A stretch of 52,612 nt of DNA from a bacterium (lineage in GTDB: Bacteria > Sysuimicrobiota > Sysuimicrobiia > Sysuimicrobiales > Segetimicrobiaceae): positions 1 to 52,612 of the forward strand of contig DASYZR010000115.1 in the NCBI GenBank assembly GCA_035945995.1, read 5' to 3'. Below the pieces are notes generated by a model. The model did no database searches, was not told the DNA's origin, and saw nothing but the letters and a program-made list of their open reading frames with translations. The position numbers were made by a program, and so were the translations under genes. Shown here one piece after another: positions 36,109 to 38,908 of this stretch (positions are counted from its first letter, which is position 1; each line of letters starts with the position of its first letter).

Positions 36109-37290
36109 TCAGCCGGTGCCGCCGGCCGCCGTCGCGAGCCGCCGCAGCCCGGCGTCCAAATCCGCCATGAGGTCCTCGACGGCCTCCAACCCCACGTGCA
36201 GGCGCAGGAGCGTCCCGGGCTCCACCCACGGCCGCACTGTGCGGACGCCTGTGAGCTGCGGCGGGGTGATGAGGCTTTCAAAGCCTCCGAAGCTCGCGCC
36301 GATCTGGAATAGCTGCAGGCCGTCGAGCATGGCCGCGACGGCCGCCCGCGACTCGGTTCGCAGCACCACCCCAAAGAGGCTCGACGACCCGGTGAAGTCA
36401 CGCTTCCACAGCGCATGGCCGGGGTCCTCGGGCAGCGCCGGATGCAGCACGCGGATGACCTCGGGGCGGCGGGCGAACCAGCGGGCCAGGTCGAGCGCCG
36501 ATTCCTCGTGCCGGCGCAGACGCACGGCGAGCGTGCGCAGCCCGCGGAGCGTCTCGTAGCACAGGTCCGGCGCCACGCAGTCGCCGAACTCGCCGACCCC
36601 GTCCTTGAGGCGCCGAAACAGCGCGTCGGTTCGGGCCGTGACCACGCCCATCATGAGATCGGAGTGGCCGGCGAGGTACTTGGTCGCCGCCTGGATCTCA
36701 ACGTCGGCGCCGTGGTCAAACGCCCGAAAATACAGCGGCGTCGCCCAGGTGTTGTCGAAGAACACGATCGCGCCGCGCTCGTGGGCCGCGGCGGCGATCG
36801 CCGGGAGGTCCTGCACTTCGAACGTGAGCGACCCCGGGGACTCCGCGTGGACGACGCGCGTGTTCGGCCGGATGAGCCCGGCGATGCCGGCGCCCAACGT
36901 CGGGTCGTAGAACGTGGCCTCGACGCCGAAGCGGGTCAACACCGACGCACAGAACGTACGCGCCGGACCGTAGACGCTGTCCGGCACCAGCACGTGATCC
37001 CCTTGGCGGAGAAATACCGCGAGGGCCTGCGTGATCGCCGCAAGACCCGACGAGGTGACGATCGACCGGGCCCCGCCGGACAACTCGGCGAGCGCCTCCG
37101 TCAGCGCGAGGGTGATGGGGGTGCCGTCGATACCGTAGTGGAAGCTGGTATACTTGCGTTCCATGCGGCGCTCGTACGCGTCCATCGTCGGAAAGACGAT
37201 GGTCGACGCGCGATGGATCGGCGGATTCACCGTCCCCTGATGCCGCGCCGGGTCGCGGCCGGCGTGCACGAGCCTCGTCTCGGGTCTCAT
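36109..37290 (-). CDS. metC: Cystathionine beta-lyase (trans-sulfuration PLP enzyme)
   Basis: 393 residues, fold-type I PLP enzyme of the Cys/Met metabolism family. The PLP lysine is in AATKYLAGHSDLMMG near residue 205; RSIVTSSGLAAITQAL and FFDNTWATP supply the cofactor loops. TKYLxGHSDxMxG is closest to MetC-type lyases that split cystathionine to homocysteine, ammonia and pyruvate. Its ATG overlaps the stop of the OsmC selenoprotein gene (ATGA), which places both in one sulfur-related operon. Gamma-synthase activity cannot be excluded. Confidence 0.82.
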   Translation of the reverse strand: MRPETRLVHAGRDPARHQGTVNPPIHRASTIVFPTMDAYERRMERKYTSFHYGIDGTPITLALTEALAELSGGARSIVTSSGLAAITQALAVFLRQGDHVLVPDSVYGPARTFCASVLTRFGVEATFYDPTLGAGIAGLIRPNTRVVHAESPGSLTFEVQDLPAIAAAAHERGAIVFFDNTWATPLYFRAFDHGADVEIQAATKYLAGHSDLMMGVVTARTDALFRRLKDGVGEFGDCVAPDLCYETLRGLRTLAVRLRRHEESALDLARWFARRPEVIRVLHPALPEDPGHALWKRDFTGSSSLFGVVLRTESRAAVAAMLDGLQLFQIGASFGGFESLITPPQLTGVRTVRPWVEPGTLLRLHVGLEAVEDLMADLDAGLRRLATAAGGTG

Positions 37291-37706
37291 CGGTCCTCCT
37301 GCAGCGTGACGTTCACGACGACCTCGGTCGCGACCGCGACCGTGCGGTACAGCGGTCAGCGGCTCCTCCAGACCTCGACCAGCCGCTCCGCCTCCGCCCG
37401 GCCGACCCCCCGCAGTTCGAAGCGCACTTCGATCCGCCGGAACTGCGCCGGGTCGGCACGATCCTGGACTCCACTGATCGTCGCGACGAGGCCGGTCAGC
37501 GGCACGCCGTTGCCCGCGGCGTAGTTCTCGATGAGCGTCACCCCGCAGGACGAGATGCCGGCGAGAAACGATTCGGTGTTGCTCAGCGCCTCGGGCTTCG
37601 TCGACGAGTCGAGCACGAAGTGATGCGCCCTCGCGCTGCTGAGCGAGCGGCCGGGCCGCCCGATCGACGCGCTGCGGACCGTGGTCACGACGCTGTCATC
37701 GGCCAT
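37287..37706 (-). CDS. OsmC-family protein with in-frame TGA (putative selenoprotein)
   Basis: 139 codons from ATG 37706 (GGAGG 6 nt before) with TGA at codon 117 (37358-37356). The OsmC fold is recognisable: FVLDSS, ESFLAGISSCGVTLIENYA with the first redox cysteine C54, RIEVRFELRG, then EVWRSR-U-PLYRTVAVATEVVVNVTL. OsmC/Ohr proteins have their second active cysteine in a CPxxxT motif, exactly where TGA stands. A SECIS-like hairpin follows. The frame beyond the TGA continues in OsmC-like sequence and ends in a 4-bp overlap with metC, so read-through is needed for normal gene spacing. The predicted role is hydroperoxide or thiol redox chemistry. Confidence 0.88.
37325..37342 (-). promoter_or_regulatory. 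SECIS-like hairpin in the OsmC gene
   Basis: On the mRNA strand, 13 nt after UGA: CGGUCGC pairs perfectly with GCGACCG around a GGUC loop located 21-24 nt after the UGA. GGUC also lies in the apical loop of the E. coli fdhF SECIS, where the G and U contact SelB. The geometry closely matches the hairpin at 28098-28116. Confidence 0.78.
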
Positions 37707-37819: not shown

Positions 37820-38908
37820 GTGCCCAGCGTGCGCCGCCGCCTGCCCGCCCCGCTCCGGCAGCTGACCTTCTGGTGGCTGCTGCTCCTGGTCCCCCTGTCG
37901 GCGGCCGCCGCCGTGCTCGGCCGGTGGCCGCTCCTGACCTTCCTGCTCTCGGGCGGCGCGCTGTTGCCGCTGGCCGAGTTGATCGGGATCTCGACTCAGC
38001 AGATCGGCCTCCACGCCGGTCCGCGCGTGGGCGGCGTGCTCAACGCCACGTTCGCGAACGTCACGGAGTTCATCCTCGCGATCGTGCTCGTGCTGCACGG
38101 CGAGATCACGGTCGTCAAGACCGCGCTGACGGGCTCGATTCTCGGCAATCTGCTGCTCGTACTGGGCTTCGCGCTGCTGGTCGGAGGGATGCGCCACCGC
38201 ACGCAGCGGTACAGCGCCGCGGCGGCGGGGGTGCACGCGACGTCGTTGACCCTCGCCGTGATCGGCCTGCTCATGCCGGCGCTCTTTTTCTTCACCGGCG
38301 GCCGGCCGAATGCCGGGCAAAGCGAGACGGTGAGCGTGGCCGTCGCCGCGGTGCTGATCGTTCTGTACGGCGCGGCCCTGGTGTTCACGCACCACACGCA
38401 CGAGCACCTGTTCCGGACGCCGTCGCCGGGGGAACGCCCCGACGGCGGGCTCGGGTGGGCGATCGGCGTGCTGGCCGGCGCCTCGGTGGTCGTGGCCGTG
38501 GAATCGCAGCTGCTGGTCACGACGCTCGCGCCGGCGATCGGGGCGCTGGGCCTCTCCAAGTTCTTCGTCGGCCTCGTGCTGGTCCCGCTCTTCGGGAACG
38601 TCGTCGAGCACAGCGCCGCGGTCGGCTTTGCGCTGCGCGATCAGCTCGACGTCACGCTCGAGATCGCGATCGGCTCGTCGACGCAGGTCGCGCTCTTCGT
38701 CGCCCCGGCGATCGTGTTGATCTCGCTCGCGGCGGGCCACCCCATGAACTTCATCTTCACGACGTTCGAGGTCGCGGCGGTCGGGCTGGCCGTGTTGATC
38801 GTGACCTTCATTTCGCACGACGGCCGGAGCAACTGGCTGGAGGGGGCGCAGTTGCTGGCGGCGTATCTCATCATGGCTGCCTCGGCGTTCTTCGTGAGTT
38901 CTCCGTGA
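37820..38908 (+). CDS. Calcium/proton antiporter (CaCA family)
   Basis: 362 residues with about 11 membrane helices. The two alpha repeats are visible: LNATFANVTEFILAIVLVL with TGSILGNLLLVLG in the first half, and VPLFGNVVEHSAAVGFAL with EIAIGSSTQVALFVAP in the second; the acidic residues (E in NVTE and NVVE) are the ion ligands in CAX proteins. It expels Ca2+ against H+ across the membrane. GTG 37820 is the start used; it diverges from the OsmC gene with a 113-bp gap. Confidence 0.88.
   Translation: MPSVRRRLPAPLRQLTFWWLLLLVPLSAAAAVLGRWPLLTFLLSGGALLPLAELIGISTQQIGLHAGPRVGGVLNATFANVTEFILAIVLVLHGEITVVKTALTGSILGNLLLVLGFALLVGGMRHRTQRYSAAAAGVHATSLTLAVIGLLMPALFFFTGGRPNAGQSETVSVAVAAVLIVLYGAALVFTHHTHEHLFRTPSPGERPDGGLGWAIGVLAGASVVVAVESQLLVTTLAPAIGALGLSKFFVGLVLVPLFGNVVEHSAAVGFALRDQLDVTLEIAIGSSTQVALFVAPAIVLISLAAGHPMNFIFTTFEVAAVGLAVLIVTFISHDGRSNWLEGAQLLAAYLIMAASAFFVSSP

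Follow-up and report, generated by a model that had tools for sequence, protein, structure and literature searches.

The minus-strand gene at positions 37287-37706 of the window (the 52,612-nucleotide stretch of DNA analysed here), a member of the OsmC family of stress-protection genes, very probably codes for an OsmC-superfamily selenoprotein, in which the UGA at codon 117 would be decoded as selenocysteine (Sec); from comparisons of sequences across genomes, we put the probability of this reading at about 0.96. An earlier sequence-only reading had proposed Sec at the second redox position of the protein, and this proposal is now strongly supported by the Sec machinery of the genome, the conservation of the TGA, the existence of homologues with cysteine at the site and the SECIS hairpin. 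The features of the locus are:

37287..37706, minus strand: OsmC-superfamily gene, predicted selenoprotein of 139 residues with Sec at 117 and a Pfam OsmC match
37545..37547, minus strand: codon for Cys54, the cysteine at the first redox position (SCGVT); unchanged in all 40 members aligned, and in the column that holds Sec in other OsmC selenoproteins
37356..37358, minus strand: in-frame UGA, codon 117 (putative Sec), in the motif R-U-P-L-Y-R-T; the column holds TGA in every readable Sec-type homologue and Cys in three homologues
37325..37342, minus strand: bacterial SECIS hairpin with a 7-bp stem and a GGUC apical loop at 37335-37332; pairs kept in 86/86 sequences
37287..37290, minus strand: ATGA in which the selenoprotein frame ends and the next gene begins (ATG 37290); this overlap is also found in the congeneric L014 and L015
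36109..37290, minus strand: cystathionine beta-lyase (metC-like), TIGR01324 at 483.7 bits (cut-off 365.9), and PF01053

Conservation of the in-frame UGA

The frame opens at ATG 37706 on the minus strand, runs for 116 codons up to the TGA at 37358-37356, continues for 22 more codons and closes with a terminal TGA at 37287. Both the in-frame TGA at codon 117, with C54 present, and the 22-codon extension ending in an ATGA overlap with the next gene (37287-37290) are as the sequence-only reading had described them. Read through, the protein reaches 45 bits with the Pfam OsmC model (PF02566, cut-off 27.5) over residues 39-129, a match that spans the TGA, and its AlphaFold model has a mean pLDDT of 92.8, with the last strand (residues 128-135) lying beyond the UGA. 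The best PDB matches of the model are OsmC/Ohr proteins (1n2f, 4xx2, 2bjo), and the gathering score and the fold both place the protein in the OsmC superfamily; a PDB sequence search with the single window protein gave no match.

Orthologues were found in 13 of the 43 genomes of the window's phylum (the window's own included); they are 40-99% identical to the window protein, and all 13 carry TGA at the same codon. Two weak matches in the phylum that have no stop, L026 and L027, are other OsmC paralogues and were not counted as orthologues. Searches with the single window protein against genome contigs returned no match, nor did a plasmid search, and the family was recovered from genome contigs with an alignment carrying X at the Sec column. 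Among the best 80 of the 178 stretches confirmed in this way, the 79 loci readable across the site all have TGA at the Sec codon, a few of them being genomes already counted among the 13 orthologues of the phylum. The 79 loci are labelled as Terrabacteria ANGP1, Rokubacteria/Methylomirabilota, Chloroflexota (including Dehalococcoidia and SAR202), Thermomicrobiota, Acidobacteriota, Actinomycetota, Planctomycetota, Bacillota and Pseudomonadota (mostly Betaproteobacteria), labels that come from draft genomes and are in some cases doubtful, as for two loci labelled Bordetella. The window itself stems from a draft assembly of 181 contigs, where an error might in principle have made TGA from TGC or TGG; with TGA at this codon in about 90 further genomes, that explanation is already refuted by the homologues and its probability is negligible.

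Three full-length homologues without TGA were found among 301 Chloroflexota genomes, and all three have a Cys codon exactly at the Sec column: L195 (CPLFRT, codon TGC), L199 (CPIYRT, codon TGT) and L201 (CPLYRA, codon TGC). An in-frame UGA aligned with the Cys of non-seleno homologues, as expected of a bacterial selenoprotein, is thus found here. In the protein tree, the Cys-type L195 and L199 group with the Sec members L067 and L076 (support 97/84), which indicates that the Cys forms arose within, or beside, the Sec forms. Since selA is present in the genomes of these Cys homologues, the change from Sec to Cys did not follow a loss of the machinery. The SECIS hairpin is absent from the DNA downstream of the Cys codon in L195, L199 and L201, so that the presence of the RNA element follows that of the Sec codon.

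That the TGA is a genuine stop, with a 116-residue OsmC protein made and the rest untranslated or decayed, is very improbable, even though this is where an annotation pipeline that lacks rules for Sec would close the gene. The segment after the TGA (PLY.TVAVAT) is among the best-conserved parts of the protein in all homologues, which do not end at this position, and the Cys homologues run on through it; the Pfam match and the last strand of the fold likewise reach beyond the TGA, and a stop would leave the covariation of the hairpin without a reason. A pipeline that terminates genes at TGA would truncate such proteins before their conserved C-terminal strand.

Sec machinery and SECIS hairpin

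The genome of the window (4.15 Mb, 98.8% complete) was searched for the Sec decoding machinery, and SelA, SelB, SelC and SelD were all found, the first three on one contig (C155) and selD on another:

C155:5846-7204: selA, 551 bits
C155:3862-5733: selB, 329 bits, the same frame also giving a C-terminal match
C155:1953-2043: selC (tRNA-Sec, anticodon TCA), 70.8 bits
G000:C5:47185-48105, minus strand: selD (L008/L117), 386 bits, with one in-frame TGA at the usual place (ACAGUASK)

The SelD of this genome is, by this motif, a selenoprotein itself. An Rfam scan of the window found two tRNAs and nothing else. Co-occurrence extends to the other genomes that carry the gene: selA scores over the cut-off in 47 of 50, and in two more (G049 and G065, where it is present as fragments) its end lies directly before selB, which brings the count to 49 of 50. 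In the remaining one, the draft G043, neither selA nor a selA end before selB was found.

A UGA read as a residue other than Sec, be it through a code change to Trp or Gly or through near-cognate suppression, would likewise keep the frame open. We consider this less probable still than a genuine stop: TGA also serves as the terminator of this very gene, at codon 140 in the window and likewise in several relatives; a complete Sec system is present in the genome and a SECIS element in the gene; and the homologues carry Cys at the site, not Trp or Gly.

The perfect 7-bp hairpin with a GGUC loop that had been noticed downstream of the UGA was recovered at 37342-37325 (CGGUCGC-GGUC-GCGACCG), where 13 nt separate the UGA from the first stem base and 20 nt separate it from the loop. 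In a 45-nt context the hairpin forms at -17.4 kcal/mol, whereas in a 70-nt fold of this single sequence another structure has the lowest energy and the folding energy is unremarkable (z = 0.71). The hairpin is therefore unproven from one sequence, folding of single sequences being uninformative here, and it is the comparative data, in the form of pair counts, that prove it. Across 86 distinct sequences, all seven pairs (six in the stem plus the one closing the loop) are standard in every case, i.e., in 602 of 602 cells. When the pairing partner is slid by 1-3 positions, only 125-351 of the 602 cells remain paired; 2000 permutations average 549, and the full 602 is attained in none of them.

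The pair that closes the loop joins the wobble positions of two neighbouring codons. It is GC in 52 sequences, CG in 16, AU in 15 and GU in 3, without a single mispairing. Because the kinship of the sequences inflates such raw counts, we also counted changes on the protein tree, where this pair has changed type at least 16 times and has never been broken. Two stem pairs vary as well (numbering from the U of UGA as 0): 20/29 alternates between CG and UA, with three changes, and 17/32 between GC and CG, with one.

Bacterial SECIS elements are described as having a stem of 4-16 bp, a loop of 3-9 nt with a G in its first two positions and its outer bases paired, a distance of 16-37 nt from the UGA to the apical loop and a minimum free energy of at most -7.5 kcal/mol (PMC13188914). 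The downstream hairpins of the family fall within all of these bounds, every one of those in the 86 distinct sequences being at or below -8.9 kcal/mol. Compared with the published model (PMC13188914, its Fig. 2A), the third loop position varies here (U, G, C or A) with the codon, while the preceding G is invariant, which is still inside the model.

Sec position and other OsmC selenoproteins

The OsmC-like selenoprotein catalogued so far bears the motif UxxT and was described in the Sargasso Sea survey (PMC1088965) and the GOS survey (PMC2398784); it is the only OsmC entry in an inventory of 119 selenoprotein entries (PMC13188914). From its motif and from the relatives in the window's phylum, we infer that the Sec of the Sargasso protein would lie at the first Cys. 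The earlier suggestion that OsmC-like selenoproteins are known from metagenomes thus holds as far as their existence goes, but their Sec would be at a different position, the one that matches the first Cys of the window protein. None of the openly accessible papers searched describes Sec at the second redox position of an OsmC/Ohr protein.

In line with this, several other OsmC proteins of the window's phylum carry TGA, with motifs such as UILT, UEEV, UINV, UTAV and ULTG, in genomes that mostly have selA. In all 13 of those that were aligned, U falls in the column of C54 and Cys in that of U117. The NCBIfam model for OsmC-like selenoproteins (NF041052, OsmC_like_Se, cut-off 95 bits) accepts a UILT protein at 154 bits and a UEGV protein at 128 bits, but gives the window protein and five of its relatives only 18-42 bits. 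The window family shares with the UxxT selenoprotein and with NF041052 the OsmC superfamily (PF02566), a UGA-encoded Sec and two redox positions; it differs from the NF041052 members of the phylum in showing the mirror arrangement, with Cys first and U second, and so does not have the Sec at the first redox position that goes with UxxT. As a difference in Sec position is enough to set apart subfamilies within one architecture (PMC13188914), this arrangement, together with scores far below the NF041052 cut-off, makes it quite likely that the window family is a separate and uncatalogued subfamily, defined by its Sec position, and not simply another UxxT member.

We likewise consider it likely that this uncatalogued subfamily extends across about ten bacterial phyla, with selenium at the resolving position, and that it makes up, with a first-position OsmC selenoprotein of the same genome (G000:C70:36516-36803), a natural pair in which Sec and Cys are swapped between the catalytic positions of one fold. 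The two arrangements would then coexist within a single fold, and even within a single genome, alongside the few natural Cys forms, so that kinetics could be compared directly position by position; this bears on why Sec occupies one redox position rather than another.

Several of the other OsmC genes deserve a brief description. The gene at G000:C70:36516-36803 (L171, minus strand) is a selenoprotein candidate with Sec first (AAAGULTGTLAG) and Cys second (GCPVAQT), and its type was found again in many genomes of the phylum. Further OsmC proteins with TGA at the first Cys are L149-L152 (UEEV/UEGV), L153/L156 (UINV), L158 (UTAV) and L164/L172/L178 (UILT/ULLT); the UINV and UTAV types reach 62-67 bits, under the NF041052 cut-off, and may be further unlisted subfamilies. 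L164 (G040:C1) and L178 (G013:C7) are first-position genes in draft genomes in which selA was not found and the tRNA-Sec is strong (81 and 79 bits); a gap in the assembly or a divergent selA may account for this. L148 (G042:C19:12369-12659) has its TGA upstream of the first Cys (GAUPVEL), in a column that holds Ala and Ser in the paralogues L179 and L180 of the window's genome, and is possibly a sequencing error or a pseudogene.

Predicted function and gene neighbourhood

The Ohr cycle begins with an attack of the first Cys on the peroxide, and the second Cys resolves the product (PMC5962072). The window family shares with Ohr (TIGR03561) the fold, two redox residues ∼63 positions apart and the CP motif at the second of them. 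The Glu of Ohr (E45 here) is kept together with both redox positions, and E45, R20 and R26 are each more than 90% conserved in the family. Unlike in Ohr, Sec takes the place of the resolving Cys, and the catalytic Arg of the Pseudomonas aeruginosa protein aligns with a variable column; the score of the window protein with TIGR03561 is 18.9 bits, far under the cut-off of 88.85, and OsmC subfamily models likewise fall well short of their cut-offs.

By analogy, the function we lean towards is that of a thiol/selenol peroxidase or reductase of organic hydroperoxides, working through the two-residue cycle of Ohr/OsmC proteins with a resolving Sec. Because the first Cys is the peroxidatic one in Ohr (PMC5962072), C54, which lies in the long helix, would attack and be oxidised to a sulfenic acid, and U117, at the second position (R-U-P-L-Y-R-T), would resolve it as an intramolecular selenenyl sulfide, to be reduced by a dithiol donor. 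Sec at the resolving position should quicken both resolution and re-reduction and protect C54 from over-oxidation, and a different conserved Arg, R20 or R26, would need to take over from the catalytic Arg of Ohr.

Of the two residues, Sec is usually the stronger nucleophile, which would speak for an exchange of roles, with U117 peroxidatic and C54 resolving; the protein could also be a disulfide reductase or transfer protein instead of a peroxidase, considering that Ohr-type models match it weakly and that the catalytic Arg column of Ohr is not conserved. We hold these options to be credible though rather unlikely. Against them stands the peroxidatic role of the first Cys in Ohr (PMC5962072), and the sister OsmC selenoproteins of the phylum have their Sec at the first position, which suggests that it is the first position that attacks in this fold.

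The overlap with the cystathionine beta-lyase gene had been taken to make sense only if the UGA is read through. This was overstated: a 66-nt gap would be ordinary too, and the neighbour is unconserved beyond the window's lineage. The ATGA overlap is present in all three congeneric genomes; beyond the genus, just two of 80 loci, those of the ANGP1 relatives L028 and L029, have a cystathionine beta-lyase nearby by tblastn, and none was found in the contig stretches of the other 78. We therefore rejected a conserved operon with this enzyme as a general feature of the family. The coupling, which had been put forward in support of recoding, is a lineage-specific detail with no bearing on it. On the other side of the gene, a divergent neighbour at 37820-38908 (plus strand) matches the sodium/calcium exchanger family (PF01699, 109.5 bits).
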